Assembly (NCBI GenBank): GCA_030148085.1
Contig: JASBUF010000051.1
Coordinates: forward strand, 1 to 64,000
Direction of reading: 5' to 3'
DNA length: 64,000 bases
From: Methylophaga sp.
Lineage (GTDB): Bacteria; Pseudomonadota; Gammaproteobacteria; Nitrosococcales; Methylophagaceae
The notes beneath the pieces are model-generated. The model had not been told where the DNA came from. It did no database searches and saw nothing but the letters and a program-made list of their open reading frames with translations. How positions within the stretch are numbered: the first letter of the stretch is position 1; every line of letters starts with the position of its first letter. This document shows positions 3,685-54,023 of the stretch, piece after piece. Position numbers and translations under genes: made by a program.

Positions 3685-4284
3685 ATGATCTTATATAACA
3701 TCGCTTTATCAGGTAACTGCCATAAAGTCCGACTAATGTTGAGTTTTTTGGGCATTGAGTTTGAGATACATGATCTGGATTTAGGTACCTCCGAGCAATC
3801 CAGTGATGCTTATTTAAAGCTTAACCCCTTTGGACAAGCGCCTGTCCTTGATGACAATGGCACGGTAATCAGAGACAGTCAGGCGATACTGGTTTATCTG
3901 GCAACGAAATTCGGTGACAAAAAATGGTGGCCTGAGTCATCTGATGAGTTAGCTGAAATCATCTCGTGGTTATCCACGGCAGCCAATGAAATTCAAAACG
4001 GACCTGCACGGCTTCGGGTGCATTATAAATTCGGCCGTCCAATAGATTTCAAACAGGCCACAGATATCAGTAATAAAGTCCTCAGAATTATAGATACACA
4101 CCTTTCACAGCGAATATGGCTGGTAGGCAATAAACCCACTATCGCTGACATAGCTATATATCCCTACCTTGCTCTTGCTCACGAAGGTCATCTTGATATC
4201 AGCTCGTATGAACATATTCAGACCTGGAAGACAAGGTTTGAATCCCTACCTAATTACCTCGCGATGCCTGGATTTTCTGAATAA
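3685..4284 (+). CDS. Glutathione S-transferase family protein
   Basis: 199 aa; N-terminal thioredoxin-like fold LSGNCHKVRLMLSFLGIEFE, LNPFGQAPVLDD, GST C-terminal ADIAIYPYLAL. Confidence 0.92.
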   Translation: MILYNIALSGNCHKVRLMLSFLGIEFEIHDLDLGTSEQSSDAYLKLNPFGQAPVLDDNGTVIRDSQAILVYLATKFGDKKWWPESSDELAEIISWLSTAANEIQNGPARLRVHYKFGRPIDFKQATDISNKVLRIIDTHLSQRIWLVGNKPTIADIAIYPYLALAHEGHLDISSYEHIQTWKTRFESLPNYLAMPGFSE

Positions 4285-4302
4285 CACTAAATGGAGTAAA
4301 CA

Positions 4303-4776
4303 ATGACAACCGAAACTAAACCACCTCTTCCCCCTTTCAATGAAGCCTCAGCGACTCAGAAGGTCAGACTCGCTGAGGATGCATGGAATAGTCGCGACCC
4401 TGAGCGTGTATCGCAAGTATATACAGAGGACACGACCTGGCGAAATCGAGCAGAATTTCCCAGGGGCCGTGAGGAAGTTAAAGCCTTCCTGAAGAGTAAA
4501 TGGACTAGAGAGCTTGATTATCGATTAATCAAAGAACTATGGGCTTTTGAACAGAACCGCATAGCAGTTCGTTTTGCTTATGAATGGCATGATGATAGCG
4601 GTAACTGGTATCGCTCTTATGGTAATGAAAACTGGGAATTTAATGTGGATGGTCTTATGCAGCGACGTTTTGCCTGTATTAATGACTTACCTATCAAGGA
4701 GTCAGAACGCTTATTTCACTGGCCTCTTGGAAGAAGACCGGATCATCACCCAAGTCTAAGCGATTTAAACCTGTAA
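4303..4776 (+). CDS. DUF1348/NTF2-like family protein
   Basis: [29 protein letters not shown] and [24 protein letters not shown] motifs. Confidence 0.9.
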
Positions 4777-4825
4777 GTGATTAGCCGAACTCTGGAAAAG
4801 GACTTCCAGGGCCTAAGTCTGTGAT

Positions 4826-5308
4826 TTAGAGAAGATCGACTTCACATCTGCTGATGAATGCTGACCAGGTTTCATTAGGCTCCCAATCAGGAAAAAGATA
4901 ACTCTCTGCTTCTTCTTTCGTTTTATTATTAGTGAGGCGGTTGTACAGGTACAGAAAGGCAGATGCTCTATAGTTCAGAGCACAATGAACCCATACTTTC
5001 TCTCCTGAAAAGGCATCCATAGCTCTTGAAAATGCCATCAAATGTGACAACTCCGGTGAATCAAATGGCACAGGGATATGAATGTAGTTCATTCCCATAG
5101 AAGAAACCAGATAGCCTTCATCTTCTAGAGCACTTTTGGAATCAGGCATGGATAAGTTTATGACTACTTGGAAACCTTGTTTTGCTATGAGCTTGAAGTC
5201 TTCTCTAAGCGGCTGTCCAGAGCTTGATAGCCTTGGTGATATTTCTAGATAGTTTTTGACTTTCATATCATCAGCACCAGAAGTCTGTAACAAAAATAAA
5301 ACTACCAC
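4826..5308 (-). CDS. Protein tyrosine phosphatase-like family protein
   Basis: SPRLSSSGQP and VHCALNYRAS loop (HCxxxxR); start probably at internal Met (MKVKNYLEIS). Confidence 0.8.
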   Translation of the reverse strand: MVVLFLLQTSGADDMKVKNYLEISPRLSSSGQPLREDFKLIAKQGFQVVINLSMPDSKSALEDEGYLVSSMGMNYIHIPVPFDSPELSHLMAFSRAMDAFSGEKVWVHCALNYRASAFLYLYNRLTNNKTKEEAESYLFPDWEPNETWSAFISRCEVDLL

Positions 5309-5469
5309 AACCTACTTAACTTAAGTGTACGTTTCATAGTTGTATACCCAAAGTACTACAACAATACGAATGCTTGTAAAGTGATGACACCTGTCTATCT
5401 TGATCGTATTTTCAGGTTGCTTGGCGAAACTAACATGAAACTAATAAAAGACCTGAGAAGGAAATAACT

Positions 5470-6327
5470 GTGAACTTGGCACGTCTTAGTCTGTTAACAA
5501 GCTTGGCAATGCTAGCGTTCGCCAGCAACTCCTTATTGTGTCGCCTAGCGCTTCATGAAACAAATATTGATGCAGCGAGCTTTACTTCGCTACGTCTAAT
5601 CAGTGGTGCACTCGTTTTATGGCTACTGTTGTCACTGCGAGGTTACTCAGGAAATCACCAAGGCAACTGGCTTTCTGCCCTAGCCCTTTTTGCCTATGCT
5701 GCACTGTTCTCATACGCCTATTTGGATCTGGCTGCTGGCACCGGTGCACTGATTCTGTTTGGTGCGGTTCAGGTATCAATGATTGGATATGGCGTCTGCA
5801 AAGGGGAACAACTCTCCTTTATACAGTGGATAGGATTAGGGGTGGCATTAACAGGTCTGATCGGACTCGTATTACCCGGCATCACAGCACCGCCATTGCT
5901 GGCAGCCATAATGATGGCTGGGGCAGGGATTGCCTGGGGTGTCTATTCCATTCGCGGTATGAGGAAAGCCAATCCTGCACTAGCCAGCCTTGGCAACTTC
6001 CTAATGACAATACCCTTATCGCTGGCCTTGGCTCTTTTGGCAGCCATAAGTCATGGACTAAATTTAGACCCAGCCGGGATTGGGCTCGCTTTGGCCTCTG
6101 GCAGTCTGGCATCAGCTGTTGGCTATCTGATCTGGTATTCGGTTTTGCCAGAATTAACTACGATGAACGCGGCGACGATTCAGCTCAGCGTACCGGTAAT
6201 CACAGCCATCGGCGGGGTTCTACTGCTCTCCGAACCGTTGAGTCTACGTCTGGTGCTGGCCTCAATGGCCATTCTAGGAGGCATCGCCGTTGTTATTCGA
6301 CAGCGAAACTCTTGTGAAATGCACTGA
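5470..6327 (+). CDS. DMT family transporter (EamA)
   Basis: 285 aa, ten TM-like segments, two EamA repeats; GTG start. Confidence 0.9.
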   Translation: MNLARLSLLTSLAMLAFASNSLLCRLALHETNIDAASFTSLRLISGALVLWLLLSLRGYSGNHQGNWLSALALFAYAALFSYAYLDLAAGTGALILFGAVQVSMIGYGVCKGEQLSFIQWIGLGVALTGLIGLVLPGITAPPLLAAIMMAGAGIAWGVYSIRGMRKANPALASLGNFLMTIPLSLALALLAAISHGLNLDPAGIGLALASGSLASAVGYLIWYSVLPELTTMNAATIQLSVPVITAIGGVLLLSEPLSLRLVLASMAILGGIAVVIRQRNSCEMH

Positions 6328-6397
6328 AGAGGTAGCAGGCTTCACAACCGACATCAAAGCTGGCGAGTGCAACAAATGGGAGCAATGTTCAATGTGC

Positions 6398-6808
6398 TTA
6401 TTCTGGCGGGTATTCATCATATTGCAACACACCATCAGGAATGACTTCCCAACTGGCTTTGGAGCCAACAAAAATGTGGCGACCAATTTCAATTTCTGGG
6501 TCATCGTTTAGACAGCCCAAAGTAACACCGTGAACTTCATTTTGATGAATACCACATAAAGTTGACCCACACAGGCTACAAAACTGAAACCCATACCCAT
6601 GCTCGCCTATATATGTCGAGAGATGTTCAATGCCACTGAGCCATTTAAATTCTGAGGGATTTACTAATGCATAGGCGGAGGCTTGAGAACTAAAAGCTTT
6701 TCTACAGCGAGAACAGTGGCATGATCTAGCGTCTCGCACTACCCCATTTATCTCGTACTTAACTTTACCGCAAAAACATTCGCCCGTTAGTTTCACATAA
6801 TTCTCCAT
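6398..6808 (-). CDS. GFA family protein (CENP-V/GFA zinc fold)
   Basis: TGECFCGKVKYEI...CHCSRCRKAFSS...FCSLCGSTLCG. Confidence 0.92.
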   Translation of the reverse strand: MENYVKLTGECFCGKVKYEINGVVRDARSCHCSRCRKAFSSQASAYALVNPSEFKWLSGIEHLSTYIGEHGYGFQFCSLCGSTLCGIHQNEVHGVTLGCLNDDPEIEIGRHIFVGSKASWEVIPDGVLQYDEYPPE

Positions 6809-6925
6809 GATATTTGACGTTTTAGTGAGAGGCAGCCGAAGCGAAACGTAGGTTATCCCGCGGAGGCCGCGCTTTTGGCGGCCGGCGTGAACTTCAACAA
6901 CATGCTTGGCCCAAGCTAACCTTGC

Positions 6926-7708
6926 TCATAGTACACCTAGCGCTACAAGGCTGGCTTTACCGAGCTCAACACGTTTATTTGCATCAGATGGTTTCTTAAT
7001 ATCGAGATTTAAGGCAAAAGAATAAATGTGATCATCTTTAACTACCCAGCCAACCCACCAACCGACACCAGTTTCTGGCGCATTCTCCCAACCTGTTTTC
7101 CCGTATATTTGCCAATTGTCTCCTTGTTCTAGATGCACAATCTCTCGGACACTCTTTTGAATATCATCAGATATCGGGAGCGTTCCCTGAGCCAGACTAG
7201 CTAAAAAAACAGCTTGCTCTTCCGCGCTAATTTTAAGCGGACCCTCCAGCCAGAATGTATCAACCGACGTGCCAATATGTTCATTACCGTAGCCAATGTT
7301 AGTGACATATTCTTGCATTCGCTCTAAGCCAACACGACGTGCCAACTCCTGATAAATTGGCACATTGGAAATGGCAATCGCCTCACGCAGCCCCATATCT
7401 TTTTCCCAGACATCAAAGGGCTGATCCTGCCCGCCATAGGGGATAACATCATCAACACTCTGCACTGCTTCTGCGGAGAGACCAATCAGACTGTTTGGGA
7501 TTTTGAACGTAGACGCAGGTACAAAGCGTAATTTGGCTCTTTTCTGTTCATGGCCTATAAAGTTTCCAGAGCTGGCGTCATAAAGCACGAATGTTCCTGT
7601 TACACCCGCATTGTTAAATAACCCAGTAACTTCAGGGCTTTCTTCCCAATTTGAGGCAAAGCATTGCACAGTAAAGACAGTGATCAGAATTGTTAGAAAT
7701 GATCTCAT
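6926..7708 (-). CDS. OXA-type class D beta-lactamase
   Basis: 260 aa with signal peptide; PASTFKIPNSLIG (STFK), SNV, YGN, KTG motifs in class D order. Confidence 0.93.
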   Translation of the reverse strand: MRSFLTILITVFTVQCFASNWEESPEVTGLFNNAGVTGTFVLYDASSGNFIGHEQKRAKLRFVPASTFKIPNSLIGLSAEAVQSVDDVIPYGGQDQPFDVWEKDMGLREAIAISNVPIYQELARRVGLERMQEYVTNIGYGNEHIGTSVDTFWLEGPLKISAEEQAVFLASLAQGTLPISDDIQKSVREIVHLEQGDNWQIYGKTGWENAPETGVGWWVGWVVKDDHIYSFALNLDIKKPSDANKRVELGKASLVALGVL

Positions 7709-7834
7709 CGTTCTATTTTCCCCTTAAGACTGGCCCTATTTGATGACATAGTTTTTTTTAGAGACCGTGAGCTTAGGTTATGCTAAAAGTCTATTCACTT
7801 GTATACAACGTAAAAGCATAGAGACAAAAACAAA

Positions 7835-10753
7835 ATGTTGTCTGAATTAGAGACGAATAATTTTCGAGACCCAGAGCCCGTTCCTGTATTACTTTGGAAG
7901 GCGAACCTGGATAAATCATTTTTTGGATTTAATCAGGGCTGGCTTGATTTTACAGGGCGGACTTTAGAACAAGAAACGGGGCTTGGTTGGCTAGATAACG
8001 TCCATCCAGATGACGCAGAAAAATTCATGCGTATTTTCACGCAAAACTTCGATAACCGTCGTCCATTCAGTGTTGAGTACAGGTTAAAAAGGCATGATCA
8101 AAAATATAGATGGGTAGTCAACAATGGTGTGCCGATTATAAATGAGACAGGTTTGTTCAGTGGGTATCTTGGTTCCTGCATAGATATTACTACTCAGAAA
8201 CAAAATGAAGAAAAGTTAAAAAAAGACAAAAAAGTTCTTCAGATATTAGCAAAAACAAGCGCTAGCGAAGAAGGCAGTATCTTTGAGTTGATAGTAGAGC
8301 AACTTGCTACCTCTCAGAGCGCCTCATATGCCCTAATTGCTATCATAGCTCCAGATGACAAGAACAAAATCCGTACGATTGCTGTCTGGGGAAATGGCAC
8401 TTTACTTGATAACTTCACATATTCATTAAAGGGCACACCTTGTGACAAAGTGTTGGGGACGGATGCTTGCTTTTATCCTGAATCTGTACAACACCTCTTC
8501 CCCGAAGACACGCTATTAGCAGAGATGGATGCAGAGAGCTACATAGGTGTTCCCCTTAGGTGTTCCAAAGGTACCTCTGTGGGTATTTTGGCGATATTGG
8601 ATACAAAGCCACTTGAAAAAGAAGAACATTATTTAGAGCTTCTTAACACCCTAGCAACCAGAGTTAGCATTGAACTTGAGCGAGTCAAGGTAGAAGACAA
8701 ATTAAAAATTTCAGCTCAGTTATTCTCACAGACAAAAGAAGGCATACTCATAACTGATACTAACAGCAGAGTTATTGATGTAAACCCTGCTTTCAGCGAG
8801 ATAACTGGCTACAGCCGAGAAGATGTATTGGGAAAAAATCCACGAATTTTAAGTTCTGGCAGACAATCACCTACTTTTTATGAGTCTATGTGGGTATCCA
8901 TTAATGAAAGGGGCTATTGGCAAGGTGAAGTCTGGAACAGAAAAAAGGACGGCGAGCTCTATGCTGAAAATCTGAGTATCTCAGTGCTTAAAAACGAACG
9001 GGGAGAAAATACTCACTACGTAGGGATATTTTCTGATATTACTCAGAGCAAACAGCAACAAGAAAAGCTTCGCTTAATAGCTCATTACGACGTTCTCACT
9101 GGCTTGCCGAACCGTTCTTTATTAGTTGATCGCTTCAATCAGGCAATTGTTCATGCAAAGCGGGTCAAAAATCTTATGGCTATCTGCTTTCTGGACTTAG
9201 ATAACTTCAAGCCAGTGAACGATAACTATGGACACGAAACGGGTGACAAACTCTTGATTGAGGTCGCTAATCGTATAACCAAAGAAATTCGTGAAGAAGA
9301 TACCGTTTCAAGATATGGCGGAGACGAATTCGCATTAATATTAAGAGACATTAACGATCTTAAATCCTGTCAGAACACTCTTTCTCGTATTCTGAAATCC
9401 CTAAATGAAACTTTTTTCATATCTAATAATGCAATTTACATCTCAGCATCAATTGGCGTAGCGCTCTACCCAGAAAATGATGATGACATCGATACCTTGA
9501 TGCGGCACGCTGATCAAGCAATGTATATAGCTAAGATGTCTGGGAAAAATCAATTTCATTTCTTCAGTCCCTCTGATAGTAAGCAACAAAAGAAGAGGCA
9601 GAAACAACTTGAAAGCATCAAGAAAGCTCTCCGCAATCATGAGTTTCAACTGTTTTATCAACCTAAAGTTAATATACGTACAGGTGAGGTGTTTGGTGCT
9701 GAAGCACTCATAAGGTGGATTGATCCCGAAAAAGGCATCATTCCGCCCTTAGAATTTTTACCACTTCTTCAGGCGACTGACCTAGAGATAGAGATCGGCC
9801 AGTGGGTGATCAATCAGGCGCTTGCCCAACTGTCAGACTGGAACCAACAAGGCATTCATCTTGAGCTGAGCGTTAATGTCTCTTCATATCATTTATTGTC
9901 TGAAGATTTTTTGTTGTCTCTCGAAAATGAGCTGGCTCTTTATCCAGATATTGCTTCCCACAACTTACAGTTAGAGATATTAGAAAGCAGCGCGTTGAGT
10001 GATCTCAACAAAATCAGTGAAGTTATTGAAACCTGTCAGAAAAAACTCAATGTCAGAATCGCATTAGATGACTTTGGAACAGGTTATTCCTCATTAGCAC
10101 ACTTACGAACCTTAAATGCACATACAATTAAAATCGATCGGTCTTTTGTCGCTGACATACTTAATGATGCTAGTGATCATGTCATTATCGACGGTGTAAT
10201 TAGTCTTGCAGAAGCATTCAACAATGAGATCATCGCAGAAGGCGTTGAAAACACAGAGCAAGGCCTAATGCTTTTAGCGATGGGGTGTGATCGAGTACAA
10301 GGTTACGCTATCGCAAGACCAATGCCGACTGACAAGTTTGTTGAATGGCTTGGAAATTATAAACCTAACCTCGTATGGCTCAATAACTGCAAAGAAAAGA
10401 GCTCCCCTCTACAAAATAAACTAAAGCAAATAAGACTAGCTATAGAACAATGGAATAATGAGGTTATAAACAACTTCCATATATTTGCCGCTGCAGATAA
10501 GAGTCCATTATGCCTCAATCATGAAAAATGTCTCTGTGGCTCATTGATAGATAGAGCTTTTAGGGATCAGCATTTTCTGGATGACTCTGTATCAGAACTG
10601 TACAGGCAACACCAGGAGTTGCACTTGATAACACAAAATATTCATGCTCTCCAAAGTCAACGCAGCCGACAAAACATAAGTCCTGAACTTACTCGATTGG
10701 AAAAAACTTATGACAATATATCAAAAATCCTAAATCAGCTCGAAACTCTATAA
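7835..10753 (+). CDS. PAS/GAF/PAS/GGDEF/EAL protein with C-terminal CZB-like zinc-binding domain
   Basis: 972 aa; SRYGGDEFALIL, AEALIRW, DDFGTGYSSL; C-terminus CLNHEKCLCGSLIDR...LYRQHQELHLITQNI resembles CZB. Confidence 0.9.
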   Translation: MLSELETNNFRDPEPVPVLLWKANLDKSFFGFNQGWLDFTGRTLEQETGLGWLDNVHPDDAEKFMRIFTQNFDNRRPFSVEYRLKRHDQKYRWVVNNGVPIINETGLFSGYLGSCIDITTQKQNEEKLKKDKKVLQILAKTSASEEGSIFELIVEQLATSQSASYALIAIIAPDDKNKIRTIAVWGNGTLLDNFTYSLKGTPCDKVLGTDACFYPESVQHLFPEDTLLAEMDAESYIGVPLRCSKGTSVGILAILDTKPLEKEEHYLELLNTLATRVSIELERVKVEDKLKISAQLFSQTKEGILITDTNSRVIDVNPAFSEITGYSREDVLGKNPRILSSGRQSPTFYESMWVSINERGYWQGEVWNRKKDGELYAENLSISVLKNERGENTHYVGIFSDITQSKQQQEKLRLIAHYDVLTGLPNRSLLVDRFNQAIVHAKRVKNLMAICFLDLDNFKPVNDNYGHETGDKLLIEVANRITKEIREEDTVSRYGGDEFALILRDINDLKSCQNTLSRILKSLNETFFISNNAIYISASIGVALYPENDDDIDTLMRHADQAMYIAKMSGKNQFHFFSPSDSKQQKKRQKQLESIKKALRNHEFQLFYQPKVNIRTGEVFGAEALIRWIDPEKGIIPPLEFLPLLQATDLEIEIGQWVINQALAQLSDWNQQGIHLELSVNVSSYHLLSEDFLLSLENELALYPDIASHNLQLEILESSALSDLNKISEVIETCQKKLNVRIALDDFGTGYSSLAHLRTLNAHTIKIDRSFVADILNDASDHVIIDGVISLAEAFNNEIIAEGVENTEQGLMLLAMGCDRVQGYAIARPMPTDKFVEWLGNYKPNLVWLNNCKEKSSPLQNKLKQIRLAIEQWNNEVINNFHIFAAADKSPLCLNHEKCLCGSLIDRAFRDQHFLDDSVSELYRQHQELHLITQNIHALQSQRSRQNISPELTRLEKTYDNISKILNQLETL

Positions 10754-46796: not shown

Positions 46797-47501
46797 TTAG
46801 ATTGCCTGATCGGCATTACCACAGGCGCGGTTAGCGGGTACGGCGATATCCATCAGTCTCGGATTAGGTAGATTCAGGTTATCCATAATCTGTTTGTACT
46901 CATCCGCGGTGCTGACTTGCAACCTGGGGTTATGCTGTATTTCTTCAGCGATGGTACTAACCATCCAGCCTTTGTAATCATGTGCTGGATACACCCAGGT
47001 AGTATCTGGTAGCTGCATCAGGTTGCTCAAGCTCTTGTATTGTTGATAGGCATCGCCATTCTGAAAATCGGTTCGTCCCGTACCACGAATCAATAAGGTG
47101 TCACCACTGAACAAATAGCTCTGATTACCTTGCTCCAGATAAAAGCTGTAACTGTCATCGGTATGGCCCGGCGTATGTAGCGTCTTAAAAACGAGACTAC
47201 CAACCGCAATACGCTGTCCATCGCCAAAGCTGCCAGTAGCACAACTTGAGCCCGCTTGCTCCCCTATCATCGTAATGCACCCGGTCTGCTCACGTAATTT
47301 ACCCAGTGCAGTGATGTGGTCGGCATGGGTATGTGTATCCATCGCCATCTTGAGTGTCAGCCCCAGCTCAGTAAGCAGGCGCAGATATTGCTCAGTATTA
47401 GCTAAAACAGGATCAATGAGCACCGCTTCCCGAGAGGTTTCATCCGCAAGCAGATAGGTATAGCTGCTGGAGTCGATATCAAATAGTTGTCTAAAAATCA
47501 T
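46797..47501 (-). CDS. MBL-fold persulfide dioxygenase-like hydrolase (ETHE1/Blh-like)
   Basis: MDTHTHADHITALGKLREQTGC, GHTDDSYSFYL, LFSGDTLLIRGTGRTDFQNGDA, YPAHDYKG. Confidence 0.93.
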   Translation of the reverse strand: MIFRQLFDIDSSSYTYLLADETSREAVLIDPVLANTEQYLRLLTELGLTLKMAMDTHTHADHITALGKLREQTGCITMIGEQAGSSCATGSFGDGQRIAVGSLVFKTLHTPGHTDDSYSFYLEQGNQSYLFSGDTLLIRGTGRTDFQNGDAYQQYKSLSNLMQLPDTTWVYPAHDYKGWMVSTIAEEIQHNPRLQVSTADEYKQIMDNLNLPNPRLMDIAVPANRACGNADQAI

Positions 47502-47506
47502 TGTTA

Positions 47507-48343
47507 TTACTCCATAAACAAATGGGAGCCAAGTAAAGCCAACGCTGTCAGTAATAAAGCGATGGCAAATGTTTTCTGCAAACGATCATCAGCAATTTTT
47601 TTGGTTAACAGCTGGCCCAAAAGCATGCCGGCAATGCCGCCAGCGACGAGATAAGCCATAACGCTGTAGGACAAAACATGATCGGTTGGCTGATTAAGGA
47701 ACAGGTAGCTGAGAAAGCCAGTTGTACTGATCACACTGATTACGACCAGCGAGGTACTGACGGCTTGCTGCATGGTGACCTGACTTAAAAACAGTAAAAG
47801 CGGCACAATGACAAAACCACCACCTACGCCTAGTAAACCTGACAATAAGCCAATCATCAGGCCGCCAACCAACAGCCCCCCCATACAACGTGGTTTGAGC
47901 TGAAACTGACCTGTGGGGCTTAACCGGCACAACACACCGTTGGACGATGTTTCTCTTAAATCGCTGGCACGTGTGACCGCTGCCTGTTCAGGTTGTCGGC
48001 TTGCAGTCAGCCACATGCGCCAGGCAATGAGGATTGCAATCACAACAAAGAGCAGCAGCAATACCAGCTCGGGTAATCGTCTTGCCGCCCACTGACCCGC
48101 AGGGGCTGCTAACATGCCACTGACACCTAGCAAGAGTGCCGGCAGCCATAACACGGGCTGTCTGGATCTAAGTCTTAGCGAGCCGAAAATGGCACTGGCG
48201 GCCACAGCTGCCAGAGACAGCCCAACTGCCTCATACATTGAAACGCCTGTCAGTAAAACCAGCAAAGGAACGGCAAATACGGATCCACCCGATCCGGTCA
48301 GACCGAGTACCAATCCGATGAGAGTACCGATTATCAGAAACAT
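47507..48343 (-). CDS. TauE/SafE family sulfite exporter-like protein
   Basis: GLVLGLTGSGGSVFAVPLLVLL and GLLSGLLGVGGGFVIVPLLL repeats. Confidence 0.92.
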   Translation of the reverse strand: MFLIIGTLIGLVLGLTGSGGSVFAVPLLVLLTGVSMYEAVGLSLAAVAASAIFGSLRLRSRQPVLWLPALLLGVSGMLAAPAGQWAARRLPELVLLLLFVVIAILIAWRMWLTASRQPEQAAVTRASDLRETSSNGVLCRLSPTGQFQLKPRCMGGLLVGGLMIGLLSGLLGVGGGFVIVPLLLFLSQVTMQQAVSTSLVVISVISTTGFLSYLFLNQPTDHVLSYSVMAYLVAGGIAGMLLGQLLTKKIADDRLQKTFAIALLLTALALLGSHLFME

Positions 48344-48350
48344 TCTGTCC

Positions 48351-48881
48351 TCAGCGGTTCCATGGCGCCTTGGTCATCAGCAAAGCCATCGCACAGTTAT
48401 CGCTGATCGCCGCATAAACAAGGCCCGCCCCAACAAAGCCACTCAACGCGAACCAGGCTGGATGCAGTAGATATCCTGCAACAACACCCGTCACTACCAA
48501 GGCTCCGGCTGTGAGGCGAACCTGACGTTCGATACTCATGTTCTTACCGCTTGCAGCCTGTTTTCCCTGTGCGGCACGAATCGCATTCATACCACCTTCG
48601 ACAATTATCAAGTCCTGTTGCAGTCTGCCTGCAAGTTTTTCAGCCGCAAGTTGTGCACGTTTACCTGACTGACAGATCAGGTAAATAGGCTTAACACCCT
48701 CCTGTACATCATCAACCTGTTGTAAAAGTGTGTTGCTGTCGAGCTCATCCAGTGGCATGGCAATGATGTTATCGAGCGCATCACCTCTGACTTCGGCTGG
48801 CGTTCTGACGTCGACACAACACAGTCCGCTTTGCTCTAACTGGTTAATAAATTCACTTGCTTGGATAGTTTTAGTACTCAT
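48351..48881 (-). CDS. Rhodanese with DUF2892 membrane anchor (YgaP-like)
   Basis: CCVDVRTPAEVRGDAL, YLICQSGKRAQLAAEKL; two C-terminal TM segments. Confidence 0.9.
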   Translation of the reverse strand: MSTKTIQASEFINQLEQSGLCCVDVRTPAEVRGDALDNIIAMPLDELDSNTLLQQVDDVQEGVKPIYLICQSGKRAQLAAEKLAGRLQQDLIIVEGGMNAIRAAQGKQAASGKNMSIERQVRLTAGALVVTGVVAGYLLHPAWFALSGFVGAGLVYAAISDNCAMALLMTKAPWNR

Positions 48882-48905
48882 CGTGTTTATTCCTCATCTG
48901 CCACA

Positions 48906-49217
48906 TCACTGCTCAGGGCAGTAAATGGTTTTCAATACCGCAATTATTTGACTGACCTCTTTACCAGCTAGTCGGTAATACACGGATTGTTTGTCTTTAC
49001 GTGTTGAGACGAGTCCAGAGCTGCGTAGCTTGGCTAGATGCTGTGACAGCGCCGATTGGCTGAGCGCCACTTTGTCATTGAGTTCATTAACAGATAACTC
49101 CGCGTTATCCAGAGCACACAGAATCATCAACCTCACCGGTGAACTGAGTTGTTTCATCAATAATGCTGCATCTTCTGCATGTTTTTGCATCATATTTTCA
49201 AGACTTATGGCTTCCAC
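48906..49217 (-). CDS. ArsR family regulator, BigR/YgaV-like
   Basis: LSSPVRLMILCALDNAELSVNELNDKVALSQSALSQHLAKLRSSGLV; two Cys (LMILC and IYCPE) placed as in persulfide-sensing BigR. Confidence 0.88.
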   Translation of the reverse strand: MEAISLENMMQKHAEDAALLMKQLSSPVRLMILCALDNAELSVNELNDKVALSQSALSQHLAKLRSSGLVSTRKDKQSVYYRLAGKEVSQIIAVLKTIYCPEQ

Positions 49218-49272
49218 TTATTTCTGCCTCACACGGTTAAAGAATGAATATCATTATATTAGAATTCTCTGA

Positions 49273-49302
49273 ATTAGCAACATCTAAATTAGCAATATCT
49301 AA
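49273..49302. promoter_or_regulatory. Tandem 15-bp operator-like repeat
   Basis: ATTAGCAACATCTAA + ATTAGCAATATCTAA, one mismatch; each carries TTAG-N6-CTAA dyad. Confidence 0.7.
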
Positions 49303-49492
49303 TATCAAGTGGTAATCTAATTGTTGCTACATCAAAGGTCAGGTATGGATGGAGTACTGAGGATGACAAGATTAGATACTCTTGACGCGCACACTTAAGG
49401 GTTCGATTTATTGAACGATAACTAAATATATGTATGATGAAATGAAAATGGACTCGGACTCTATCAGTGACGAAAGGAGCATCATAAATCGC

Positions 49493-50422
49493 ATGCGATC
49501 TATTGTTGTGGCCGTGCTTTTTTCCTTGCTGACTGCATGCTCGGAAGCACCTAGCCTCACCCTCACGGTTGGCAGCAATCAATGGCCAGGTTACGAGACC
49601 TTACATCTGGCTAAAAAACTCAATTTGTACGATGACTACGCCATCAAACTGGTCGAGTTAACTTCCGCAACGGATGTGATTAATGCCTTCAAATACGGGC
49701 AGTTAGATGTTGCCGCATTAACGCTGGATGAGGCCATACTGCTCGCACAAGATGTACCGGACATCGTTGTCTTTCTGGTGATGGACATCTCACATGGTGC
49801 TGATAAGTTAATCGCCAAACCTGATATCAAAACTCTTCAGGATCTTGTCAATAAACGTATCGGGGTTGAGCAAACGGCACTTGGTGCTTTTTTCTTTAGT
49901 CAGGTTTTAAAAAAAGCTGAACTCTCCAGCACACAAGTCATAGTCGTTCCCACCACCGTTGACCAGCATTTACGAATGATGGAAATGGACAATCTGGATG
50001 CTGTAGTCACCTTTGAACCTACAGCATCAAAACTGCTTTCCCAAGGCAATCTAAGCTTATTTGACAGCAGTGAAATACCAGACAAAATCGTCGATGTGCT
50101 GGTCACAACGGAGTCACAGATAAACACCAAAAACGACAGCCTGAAGCAATTGGTCAGTGCACAATGGGAAGCCCTGAATTACCTGTCATCCAACCCCATT
50201 GAGGCGGCGATGATAATGGCGCCAAGACTGCATGTATCTGCAGAACAATTACTCAGCAGTTACGATGATCTGTTACTTCCAAATCAACAACGAAATCAAA
50301 CATTGCTAGGCGGGGAACTCCTGAAGACGGCTATCCAACTGAACACTTTGATGGTTGAGGAAGGCATACATAACGGTCAGGTCGATGTAAGAAATTTGAT
50401 ATCTGACAGGTTCGTGCAGTGA
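49493..50422 (+). CDS. Lipoprotein ABC-type substrate-binding protein (NMT1/SsuA-like)
   Basis: MRSIVVAVLFSLLTACSEAP lipobox; NQWPGYETLHLAKKLNLYDDYAIKLVEL; start at 49493 preferred. Confidence 0.85.
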   Translation: MRSIVVAVLFSLLTACSEAPSLTLTVGSNQWPGYETLHLAKKLNLYDDYAIKLVELTSATDVINAFKYGQLDVAALTLDEAILLAQDVPDIVVFLVMDISHGADKLIAKPDIKTLQDLVNKRIGVEQTALGAFFFSQVLKKAELSSTQVIVVPTTVDQHLRMMEMDNLDAVVTFEPTASKLLSQGNLSLFDSSEIPDKIVDVLVTTESQINTKNDSLKQLVSAQWEALNYLSSNPIEAAMIMAPRLHVSAEQLLSSYDDLLLPNQQRNQTLLGGELLKTAIQLNTLMVEEGIHNGQVDVRNLISDRFVQ

Positions 50423-53400
50423 CAAAGATATCTACTATCAAACTCAAGGTATGGATACCAGTTATTACGTTACTCCTCTACTCTTTGCTGTTAACAGCCG
50501 AGTTGTATTCCAGTTACCAGAAGACCATCAATACCATTGATGCCGACGCAAAAGAAGGCATCAAGTCTCTCCTCTTTAAAACCGGACACTATGTCAGCTA
50601 CGCAGCGGCGAATGGGTCTTCCGTCGATCTCAAGCGCATCGTCGCGAATCTGACCCTGTTGGAGAATGTGGACGAAGCACTGGTCGTCGGACCTGATTTA
50701 CGGATTCATTATTCCTCAAGACTCGCCTGGATAGATGAGAACGCACAGGGCTTATTGAGCCAAAATGAACTGAATCTACTCACCTCATTCTCTAATGCAA
50801 AGGCAATAGATGTGATTCGTCAGGCTAACTATGTTTACGGCCTGGCTGCAGTAGAGTTATCGTTCGATGGCATCCAGGCAGAGAATGATGAAATTCTTCT
50901 GCTTCGTTATGACCTTACCGAGAAATTGAATAGAGCCTTTAAAGCCAGTTTGGACGAGGCCCTTCCGCTTATCTTTATCACGCTGTTCACAGCTTTATTA
51001 ATCACTTATCTGCTGCATCGTTATGTCACCATACCTCTCGGCCTGCTGAGTAACTTAGTCAGCAAAATCAATTCCCCTACAGAGAAACTCGAGAATCCCC
51101 TGCTCGGTGAGGATGAATTGGCAAACGTCGGTGAAGCCTTAACGAATGCCGGCCTGCAAATCAGGGAGGATATGACAGCGCTTAAGGATCGTGAAAACCG
51201 TATCAGTATCACGCTCAATGCGATTGGTGATGGCGTGATTGTCACGGACAGTGAGGGCTACATTCAGCGACTGAATCCAACGGCTGAAAAACTTACTGGC
51301 TGGACAGCTGAGCAGGCGATCGGCGAGCTAAGTCAACATGTCTTTAAAGCGTTTTCACATGAAAGATCAGAGCTGGTTGACCCTGTTCAGGAAGTTATCC
51401 ATACCGGCAAAGAGCTCAAGCTGCATAACCGTACCATTCTGACATCCAAAGCCAATACTAAACTGCAGATATCTCAGTGTGCCGCCCCCATTTATGAGGG
51501 TGATAAGCTGGTCGGTGTGGTGTTGGTTTTTCAGGATGTTTCCAGAGAATACATGCTGCGGGATAAGTTAAGGCAAAGTGTCGACTTTCTGGAGAAGCTG
51601 CTTCAAATCAGTCCTAGCGTCACCTTTGTTTTAAAAAAGACCAGTCCGCAAACAGACTATGTCTTTTCCTATGTATCCGAGTCCATTGCACGCTATACCG
51701 GCATTAGCAGTGAGCAATGCATAGCTCAGAGCCATGACACCCTTGATCTAATTCACTCTGATGATCGTGAGAAGCTCAAGAACTGCCTGAATGATGCCAT
51801 CAATAAGCCGGGCAAAGTCATTACCACTGATTTCCGTTTTATCATAGATGCCCCGAAAAACCTGACATTCAGAGTCAATTTGGTGGCAACCCATGAAATT
51901 GATAACACCAGTCAGATTGTCGGCGTGGCGATTGATATTTCTGAGCAAATACGTCACGAAGAACAAAACCTGTTTCTAGGTAATATCTTGGAACGCTCCT
52001 TAAATGAGATTTATATCTTTGACGCACAGACCCTTTTGTTCATTCAAGTGAATTATGGCGCCTTGAATAACTTGGGTTACACGAATGAGGAAATCAAACA
52101 GCTTACGCCACTGGATATAAAGCATGACTTGTCGAGAGCGCAATTTGAGTCTCTTATTGAACCTCTGCAATCAGGTGAAAAAAATCTCGTCGAATTTGAA
52201 ACAGCCCATTACCGAAAAGACGGTTCTAGCTATCCGGTACATGTCTCGCTGCAGAAGGATCTGAGTAGTGAAGGCGATGTATTTGTGGCCTTTACTAACG
52301 ACATAACTGAGGCTAAACGTTCGGAGTCAAAAATCAATTTTTTGGCTTTTCATGACGTACTTACCGCTCTGCCAAACCAATCCTTACTGGATGAACGGAT
52401 TAATCAAGCAATCATCAGCAGCCATCGAGATAAAGAGCAGTTTGCCTTGCTCTATATGGATCTCGATCGTTTTAAAATCATCAACGACACACTGGGCCAT
52501 GCCAGTGGCGACAAACTCCTCAAAGCCGTTGCACTGCGGCTGAAAGCGAATGTTCGTGAGCAAGATACGGTGTCCAGAACCGGCGGTGATGAATTTACGG
52601 TGCTGCTTGTTGATACCGATCAAAAAGGCGCTGCACGCGTGGCAGATAACCTATTGACGGCTATCGCTCAGCCTTTTGTTATCAATAAGCAAACGTTTCA
52701 TGTCACTACCTCTATCGGCATCAGCATGTACCCGGAAAATGGCGAAACCGGCCCGCTACTTAAACAGAAAGCAGACAACGCGATGTACAGGGCAAAAGAA
52801 CATAAACGTAACTGCTTTCAGTTCTTTACCGAAGAGATGCACCGTAAAATGCTGCACCGCATGCACGTTGAGAGCGAATTGCATGCGGCGATTGAAAACA
52901 ATGAATTTTCATTGGTTTACCAGCCACAGCTAGATTTGCTTACAAATAAAATTATCGGCGCAGAGGCGCTGCTTCGCTGGGATAACAGTAACCTAGGTCA
53001 AGTACCACCCAATGTGTTCATACCAATAGCCGAAGAGTCCGGCTTGATCAGTGAAATTGGTGATTGGGTATTAAATGAAGCCATTGCACAAGCCGGTCGC
53101 TGGCGACCACAGATCCCTGAGCCCTTCACCGTTGCGATCAATATTTCTGGTTTTCAGTTCAGAAATAGCTTACTGGCTGACTCGATTTCAACACTGCTGC
53201 GTGAGCATGGGCTTGAATCTGGTGACATCGAAATAGAAGTCACAGAAACGGTCGCCATGCATGATATGGCTTACAGCATTAAGCAAATGCAGACGCTCAG
53301 AAATGCCGGCATTCATTTGTCTTTGGATGATTTTGGTACGGGTTTTTCTTCATTAAGTGCATTGAAAAAATTCCCCATCAACAAACTGAAAATTGATAAG

Positions 53401-53628
53401 AGCTTTATTGATGACATGCTGATCGATGATGATGATTCCGCGATTGTGGACACCGTGATTACCTTGGCTAAAACACTGAAATTGAAGACCGTCGCTGAAG
53501 GTGTGGAGTCTGACAGTCAATTGAAAATGCTTCGAAGTAAAGGCTGTCATTCCATCCAGGGTTACCTTTTCAGTAAGCCTGTTCCCGGTGATGAAATGTT
53601 GAAATTTTCAAAAGAATACGGCAGTTGA
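50419..53628 (+). CDS. Membrane sensor with PAS domains, GGDEF and EAL
   Basis: 1069 aa; SRTGGDEFTVLL, AEALLRW, DDFGTGFSSL; GTG start overlaps SBP stop by 4 bp. Confidence 0.94.
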   Translation: MTKISTIKLKVWIPVITLLLYSLLLTAELYSSYQKTINTIDADAKEGIKSLLFKTGHYVSYAAANGSSVDLKRIVANLTLLENVDEALVVGPDLRIHYSSRLAWIDENAQGLLSQNELNLLTSFSNAKAIDVIRQANYVYGLAAVELSFDGIQAENDEILLLRYDLTEKLNRAFKASLDEALPLIFITLFTALLITYLLHRYVTIPLGLLSNLVSKINSPTEKLENPLLGEDELANVGEALTNAGLQIREDMTALKDRENRISITLNAIGDGVIVTDSEGYIQRLNPTAEKLTGWTAEQAIGELSQHVFKAFSHERSELVDPVQEVIHTGKELKLHNRTILTSKANTKLQISQCAAPIYEGDKLVGVVLVFQDVSREYMLRDKLRQSVDFLEKLLQISPSVTFVLKKTSPQTDYVFSYVSESIARYTGISSEQCIAQSHDTLDLIHSDDREKLKNCLNDAINKPGKVITTDFRFIIDAPKNLTFRVNLVATHEIDNTSQIVGVAIDISEQIRHEEQNLFLGNILERSLNEIYIFDAQTLLFIQVNYGALNNLGYTNEEIKQLTPLDIKHDLSRAQFESLIEPLQSGEKNLVEFETAHYRKDGSSYPVHVSLQKDLSSEGDVFVAFTNDITEAKRSESKINFLAFHDVLTALPNQSLLDERINQAIISSHRDKEQFALLYMDLDRFKIINDTLGHASGDKLLKAVALRLKANVREQDTVSRTGGDEFTVLLVDTDQKGAARVADNLLTAIAQPFVINKQTFHVTTSIGISMYPENGETGPLLKQKADNAMYRAKEHKRNCFQFFTEEMHRKMLHRMHVESELHAAIENNEFSLVYQPQLDLLTNKIIGAEALLRWDNSNLGQVPPNVFIPIAEESGLISEIGDWVLNEAIAQAGRWRPQIPEPFTVAINISGFQFRNSLLADSISTLLREHGLESGDIEIEVTETVAMHDMAYSIKQMQTLRNAGIHLSLDDFGTGFSSLSALKKFPINKLKIDKSFIDDMLIDDDDSAIVDTVITLAKTLKLKTVAEGVESDSQLKMLRSKGCHSIQGYLFSKPVPGDEMLKFSKEYGS

Positions 53629-53699: not shown

Positions 53700-54023
53700 G
53701 TGAAACCAAACTACTTCATTTCACTTTTGCTGATTATCTGCATGGTCTACTCGACCAGCGCAGCGGCTTTTTTGCATATGAATGAGCATCGGCATATTGA
53801 ATCACATGCTGCTGAACACCAGCATGATGCTGAGCACAGTCATCAGCATAACGGCGAAAACGACGCCGATCATGCACATCACTTTAACCTCCATGTCATT
53901 GGGGATTTGGTTGAACATGACGCCCTGTCATTTAGCCAACCCAATGGCTCATTAAGCGATGATTTTTTCAGTCGCTTAGTCTCTCGCAGCTATTCCCCAC
54001 CTATACCGCCGCCCAACGCGTAA
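53700..54023 (+). CDS. Small exported His-rich protein (CzcI-like position)
   Basis: Signal peptide then HMNEHRHIESHAAEHQHDAEHSHQHNGENDADHAHHF; GTG start; precedes czcC. Confidence 0.7.
   Translation: MKPNYFISLLLIICMVYSTSAAAFLHMNEHRHIESHAAEHQHDAEHSHQHNGENDADHAHHFNLHVIGDLVEHDALSFSQPNGSLSDDFFSRLVSRSYSPPIPPPNA

Follow-up and report, generated by a model that had tools for sequence, protein, structure and literature searches.

A lipoprotein of the NMT1/SsuA family as the probable signalling partner of an adjacent PAS-GGDEF-EAL membrane sensor in Methylophaga sp.

A stretch of 64,000 nucleotides from Methylophaga sp. (assembly GCA_030148085.1, contig JASBUF010000051.1, positions 1 to 64,000, forward strand), referred to below as the window, contains two overlapping genes, one for a substrate-binding protein (SBP) with a lipoprotein signal and one for a membrane sensor with PAS, GGDEF and EAL domains (Table 1). 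To judge from the sequences and their relatives, the two genes very probably encode one receptor complex, in which the SBP is dedicated to signalling and reports to the adjacent sensor. A preliminary description of the locus had reported an overlap of 4 bp between the genes, which was confirmed together with its coordinates (junction GTGA). The overlap possibly couples the translation of SBP and sensor, and overlaps are common among homologous pairs (gap of zero or less in 69 of 93 measured, exactly -4 in 39).

The ATG assigned as the start of the SBP gene follows an AAGGAG motif and opens a signal peptide with the lipobox MRSIVVAVLFSLLTAC (LLTAC); an alternative in-frame ATG at 49430 would give a longer open reading frame (ORF). 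The SBP matched the Pfam families NMT1_2 (1e-14) and NMT1 (7e-13). The nearest NCBIfam family was SsuA_fam (1.8e-27, under that family's curated cut-off), ABC_peri_uca was also matched, and neither the Pfam nor the NCBIfam search returned a polyamine-binding (PotD/PotF, SBP_bac_8-type) family. A phmmer search of the PDB with the single SBP sequence gave no match, whereas a profile of the SBP reached TauA and SsuA. The AlphaFold2 (AF2) model, for which the input alignments had only four to five rows (SBP and periplasmic region of the sensor alike), had a predicted local distance difference test score (pLDDT) of 87.2, and its top fold matches were SsuA (2x26, TM-score 0.82) and TauA (6ssy, 0.81). 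The SBP is accordingly modelled with the venus-flytrap fold of the NMT1 type.

Inspection of the sensor showed the motifs RTGGDEF, REQD (I-site), EALLR, DDFGTGFSSL and AEGVES to be present; by these intact catalytic motifs of both domains it is a predicted bifunctional GGDEF-EAL enzyme. Regarding the about 155 periplasmic residues between its two transmembrane (TM) helices, no family was returned by a Pfam search, and in the periplasmic parts of 50 receptor homologues Pfam found only HAMP after TM2 and stray single weak matches, among them one to Cache_WalK as the sole match to a Cache family. Modelled with AF2 from a four-row alignment (pLDDT 83.6), the region shows a long N-terminal helix and a PAS-like alpha/beta core. 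Foldseek matches in the PDB were PctD, WalK and TlpQ (E values from 2e-5 to 1e-3), CitA, DctB and LuxQ (3c38, 2e-3), while a profile of the N-terminal part of the receptor matched PDB sequences chiefly through the HAMP region. The receptor domain is a Pfam orphan with, according to the model, a Cache/PAS-like fold.

Table 1. Features of the SBP-sensor locus in the window and of related loci named in the text
Feature	Position	Strand	Details and basis
NMT1/SsuA-like lipoprotein SBP, sensor-linked clade	49493..50422	+	309 aa; ORF translation, Pfam, AF2 fold, tree position
SBP signal peptide and lipobox (L-T-A-C)	49493..49540	+	lipobox Cys = Cys16; sequence
Overlap of SBP stop and sensor start, 4 bp (GTGA)	50419..50422	+	sequence
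Membrane receptor, TM-periplasmic Cache-like-TM-PAS x3-GGDEF-EAL	50419..53628	+	1069 aa, GTG start; Pfam and sequence
Sensor TM helix 1 (about residues 9-27)	50443..50499	+	hydropathy; same place in homologues
Periplasmic receptor domain 'sN' (about residues 28-182) and start of TM2, as modelled	50500..50982	+	AF2, Foldseek
Sensor TM helix 2 (about residues 183-201)	50965..51021	+	hydropathy; same place in homologues
Three PAS stretches of the sensor	51181..52323	+	Pfam PAS, PAS_9, PAS_4, PAS_3
GGDEF domain, RTGGDEF and I-site RxxD (REQD)	52345..52812	+	Pfam PF00990, 6e-47
EAL domain with catalytic motifs	52876..53580	+	Pfam PF00563, 1.5e-70
PhnD-type receptor loci	L043, L044, L045, L076, L082, L164, L165, L167, L086, L099, L100, L103, L104, L173, L174		
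NMT1 fusion proteins of the source genome (G000): two with GGDEF, one with PAS-histidine kinase-receiver	L056:6641-8248; L057:382-2022; L055:5041-7725	-; +; -	
Ilyobacter polytropus DSM 2926 pILYOP01 (L233), Fusobacteriota	3995-7876		NMT1 lipoprotein, Cache-HAMP-HD phosphohydrolase, GGDEF protein

In 12 of 57 genomes of the same GTDB family, a PAS-GGDEF-EAL sensor is encoded beside a related SBP (30-48% identity). With a profile built from 14 SBPs, the search was extended to 63 genomes of the order, 369 of the class and 399 of the phylum, and 120 loci were retrieved from the class and phylum searches. At 200 bits or more there were 99 loci excluding the SBP of the window (13 of them had been in the training profile), from roughly 45 GTDB families as counted from family codes. 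A membrane receptor (kinase, GGDEF-EAL, GGDEF or EAL) is directly adjacent to the SBP in 97 of the 99, with the adjacency at L073 and L105 scored through the coordinates of the receptor-domain search described below, and no ABC (ATP-binding cassette) permease stands beside any of them. The outputs of the 97 receptors are 51 kinase, 30 GGDEF-EAL, eight GGDEF and one EAL, with seven uncalled owing to contig ends, split genes or ORF calling at high GC; the tally is automatic, except that L168 was added by hand. Since 12 of the 57 family genomes and 97 of the wider loci are paired in this way, the adjacency goes beyond chance, and coincidence was ruled out as its explanation.

Among the SBP homologues at 100-180 bits, by comparison, 31 of 43 have an ABC permease or ATPase as neighbour. 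Two loci with scores of 176-179 bits are sensor-linked, and on the SBP tree they group with the sensor side. Named plasmid records, which lay outside the profile, yielded ten loci, two sensor-linked, seven ABC-linked and one with neither partner. The SBP of Niveispirillum cyanobacteriorum TH16 (227.8 bits) has an EAL receptor 9 bp downstream, and that of Ilyobacter polytropus DSM 2926 (196.4 bits) is followed with zero gap by an HD-domain receptor and then by a GGDEF protein. The other eight scored below 192 bits and comprise the seven ABC-linked loci and L231 (149.5 bits), the one with neither partner. Because the sensor-linked SBP of Ilyobacter scores just below 200 bits, this value is a working threshold and not a boundary.

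The bit scores and the search profile share their origin, so that a tree and a reverse search are better tests than score classes. On a quick maximum-likelihood tree of 146 SBPs (IQ-TREE, with SH-aLRT support only and several long branches), the division into ABC-linked and sensor-linked SBPs requires one change (branch support 98), and so does the periplasmic type of the receptor (Cache-like versus PhnD, PF12974), whereas the output (histidine kinase versus cyclic diguanosine monophosphate (c-di-GMP) enzyme) changes 19 times. The SBP therefore tracks the periplasmic side of the receptor, while the inside gets exchanged. Three kinase partners (L108, L175 and L182) have longer periplasmic regions, that of L175 matching dCache_1, and the GGDEF-EAL partners L095 and L096 escaped automatic typing; the tree places L095 among the PhnD receptors.

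Co-divergence was examined by Mantel tests on FastTree patristic distances, with the output domain as the control for shared gene history. Regarding 42 kinase pairs, the SBP correlated with the receptor domain at r = 0.82 and with the kinase at r = 0.32; the partial correlations were 0.79 and 0.07 (p = 0.08), respectively. Regarding 25 GGDEF-EAL pairs, the values were 0.75 for the receptor domain and 0.58 for the output (partial 0.62 versus 0.26). The reverse search used a profile of the receptor domain only in the same 369 class genomes; by coordinates, 29 of the 32 matches at 75 bits or more directly adjoin an SBP match, as do about half of those below 75 bits.

The two groups of SBPs also differ in their anchor. 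A lipobox regular expression matched 80 of 99 sensor-linked SBPs and two of 33 ABC-linked ones, and the aligned lipobox cysteine is found in 97% of the sensor-linked SBPs that have a residue at that column. By sequence, then, the sensor-linked SBPs are mostly predicted lipoproteins and the ABC-linked ones are not, which is noteworthy because SBPs of Gram-negative bacteria are described as diffusible in the periplasm (PMC11113362).

In the proposed mechanism, the lipid-anchored SBP with its NMT1/SsuA-type venus-flytrap fold would capture a small ligand in the periplasm and, in one conformation, be it the open or the closed one, dock on the periplasmic, Cache-like domain of the sensor. Docking would alter the way in which TM2 and the linker couple to the PAS-GGDEF-EAL module and in this way shift the balance between synthesis and hydrolysis of c-di-GMP. 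Elsewhere, the same module of SBP and receptor domain would act on histidine kinase, GGDEF-only, EAL-only or HD-type (HD-GYP-like) outputs. The contact between SBP and sensor, the control by a ligand and the direction of the change in c-di-GMP are the parts of this model that we infer.

Several observations weigh against such a complex. Two of the 99 SBPs (L079 and L087) have no adjoining receptor, and three receptor-domain matches of at least 75 bits (L211, L212 and L214) lack an SBP in the flanking sequence read, for which reason each half may occur alone. The residue after the lipobox cysteine of the SBP is serine, which in E. coli leads to sorting to the outer membrane; under this rule, which is that of E. 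coli and may not be that of the host, the SBP would be placed at the opposite side of the periplasm. Lastly, roughly 10% of the genome is missing, and a permease that the SBP serves could be encoded there. Regarding the receptor, Cache domains often bind ligands directly, and the Cache-like fold, together with the three strong matches without an SBP, would suit a receptor domain that senses a ligand of its own or a physical cue, the SBP only modulating or buffering it as an accessory, scavenging or chaperone-like lipoprotein. This arrangement is improbable, as the divergence of the receptor domain parallels that of the SBP, most matches of the domain adjoin an SBP, and one clade keeps the SBP though its receptor domain is of the PhnD type.

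Transport offers a different account, in which the SBP serves an ABC permease encoded elsewhere and its position beside the sensor reflects co-regulation only. It shares its fold and Pfam family with ABC-linked NMT1 proteins, and the same genus contains ABC-linked homologues, but none of the 99 close homologues adjoins an ABC permease, the tree needs only one change to separate ABC from sensor linkage, and lipoproteins predominate among the sensor-linked SBPs, unlike the ABC-linked ones. No ABC permease or ATPase adjoins the pair or was found in the window, in agreement with the preliminary description, which had named an ABC permease elsewhere working with this SBP as a finding that would overturn the proposal. 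Such a permease was looked for in the source genome (90% complete), where only two of nine PF00528 matches (C8 and C20) resemble NMT1/SsuC-type permeases; each belongs to an operon that also encodes an ATPase and, upstream, a predicted binding protein of its own, nitrate-type by reading. As no orphan SsuC-type permease was found in this 90%-complete genome, an unlinked ABC importer that includes the SBP was rejected, and the transport account is very unlikely. Equally so is a dual role, in which the SBP signals through the sensor and also loads a transporter; BctC with BctE is a precedent (PMC9602780), but no permease partner for the clade was found among the 99 loci or in the source genome. 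The preferred reading remains that of an SBP dedicated to the adjacent sensor.

Upstream of the pair, on the opposite strand (46797-49217), are genes of sulfur type and a regulator: persulfide dioxygenase-like, TauE, rhodanese/YgaP and ArsR. AT-rich imperfect inverted repeats at 49256-49305, between these genes and the divergent SBP gene, might form a candidate ArsR operator. Downstream is a CzcCBA-type efflux cluster, named by reading the ORFs without a family search. Directly before it, a histidine-rich ORF of 107 aa with a signal-peptide-like start (53700-54023, +) gave no match in a Pfam search.

From this neighbourhood the preliminary description had suggested a sulfur compound as a possible ligand, a proposal that found no support; it bears on the ligand and would be compatible with the receptor model. 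The fold of the SBP is nearest to TauA and SsuA, and the persulfide dioxygenase, TauE and rhodanese genes are its neighbours in the window, but most close relatives have no sulfur genes as neighbours and sit downstream of a his-HIT-tat block (histidine biosynthesis, HIT, tat) or beside other unrelated genes. In the alignment, the loop PFISTTHY of TauA and QKGSSSHN of SsuA, rich in serine and threonine and presumably in contact with the sulfonate, corresponds to EQTALGAF in the SBP, where it is replaced by E126-x4-G131. The conserved residues of the SBP are W31, G33, S100, G102, D104, E126 and D201; many are common to the nearest ABC-linked clades, and the acidic D104, E126 and D201 are nearly invariant. 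With an acidic residue in place of the loop and differing neighbours in the relatives, a sulfur (sulfonate-like) ligand is unsupported by the neighbourhood and is considered unlikely. The nearest ABC-linked clades adjoin creatininase-like, glutamine-synthetase-like or urea-carboxylase-associated genes, which point rather to nitrogen compounds; the ligand of the SBP might, tentatively, contain nitrogen and perhaps be cationic.

Since the SBP family is also paired with histidine kinases and other outputs, it is not a c-di-GMP-specific system, and the pair is more aptly seen as belonging to a broad family of modular receptors. In the source genome itself, the clade is represented by one further SBP (C79), which adjoins a histidine kinase. 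In addition, NMT1 is fused to GGDEF in two of its proteins and to a PAS-histidine kinase-receiver in one (Table 1); these proteins realise the same idea in covalent form. In a sub-clade, the separate NMT1 lipoprotein is retained and the receptor bears a venus-flytrap domain of its own, of the PhnD type (PF12974). There is probably a large superfamily, in Pseudomonadota and beyond, in which the lipid-anchored NMT1 SBP and the orphan Cache-like domain form a portable, co-evolving module on histidine kinases, diguanylate cyclases and EAL or HD phosphodiesterases, and in which the PhnD sub-clade would have swapped the Cache-like domain for a second venus-flytrap, one binding protein reading another. 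Broken genes were seen at two loci: in one genome of the GTDB family (G035, L048) the SBP lies in two frames (918-1460 and 1457-1870, -), possibly through a sequencing error, and the sensor reaches near the contig end; in Dolichospermum (L003) the SBP is broken (44-397 and 630-857, +) while the reading frame of the kinase is open.

One SBP subfamily can be recognised from sequence as signalling-dedicated, though its annotated member in Niveispirillum carries the name 'ABC transporter substrate-binding protein'. The survey gives some 97 candidate receptor pairs plus one each in the named strains Niveispirillum cyanobacteriorum TH16 and Ilyobacter polytropus DSM 2926. As the outputs are interchangeable, a single ligand screen of an SBP could be informative for kinases as well as for c-di-GMP enzymes. 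About 10 kinase examples of signalling from an SBP to a receptor are characterised (PMC9602780), and according to a 2022 review, SBP_bac_3 is the only Pfam family of the periplasmic-binding-protein clan studied in c-di-GMP networks (PMC8846402). No description of NMT1-type SBPs partnering GGDEF or kinase receptors was found in the literature covered, which omits most papers in subscription journals, and for this reason the family is only provisionally regarded as apparently undescribed.

Among known systems, the closest in layout is NspS-MbaA, in which the gene of an SBP likewise overlaps one for a TM-periplasmic-TM-GGDEF-EAL protein (by 16 bp in V. cholerae, 3 bp in S. meliloti and 13 bp in Pseudomonas) and NspS is a PotD-like polyamine binder (PMC9993111). 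The preliminary description had suggested this logic with a different SBP family, a view that the comparative evidence (adjacency, co-divergence with the periplasmic domain, lack of ABC partners, lipid anchor) supports strongly. The pair is not a member of the NspS-MbaA family, because SBP family, anchor and receptor domain differ: the SBP here is of the NMT1/SsuA family, a probable lipoprotein and no homologue of PotD/PotF, and the same module occurs with kinase, GGDEF-only, EAL-only and HD outputs as well. With TauA, SsuA and NrtA, the binding proteins of ABC importers, the SBP shares the fold (TM-score 0.81 to TauA) and the Pfam family, but it has no ABC partner, carries a lipid anchor and does not conserve the loop of the sulfonate binders. 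The receptor domain resembles Cache-domain receptors in its modelled long N-terminal helix and PAS-like core between two TM helices, whereas the Pfam Cache families do not cover it beyond the single weak Cache_WalK match.

As in LuxP-LuxQ and other SBP-kinase pairs, the SBP appears to be dedicated to a receptor, and the periplasmic domain of LuxQ is among the fold matches; LuxP, however, is a relative of the ribose-binding protein, the Cache-like domain here is single rather than double, and the output is freely exchanged. ScrB-ScrC of Vibrio parahaemolyticus, which acts in response to a quorum signal that ScrA produces, is similar in that a periplasmic partner controls a GGDEF-EAL protein. 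In PMC11113362, ScrB-ScrC is cited as an SBP-activated diguanylate cyclase/phosphodiesterase (Trimble and McCarter 2011). The SBP-fused sensors RmcA and CdgH also tie venus-flytrap sensing to c-di-GMP enzymes (PMC8846402, PMC5431781), with the difference that the SBP is covalently attached there and a separate lipoprotein here.

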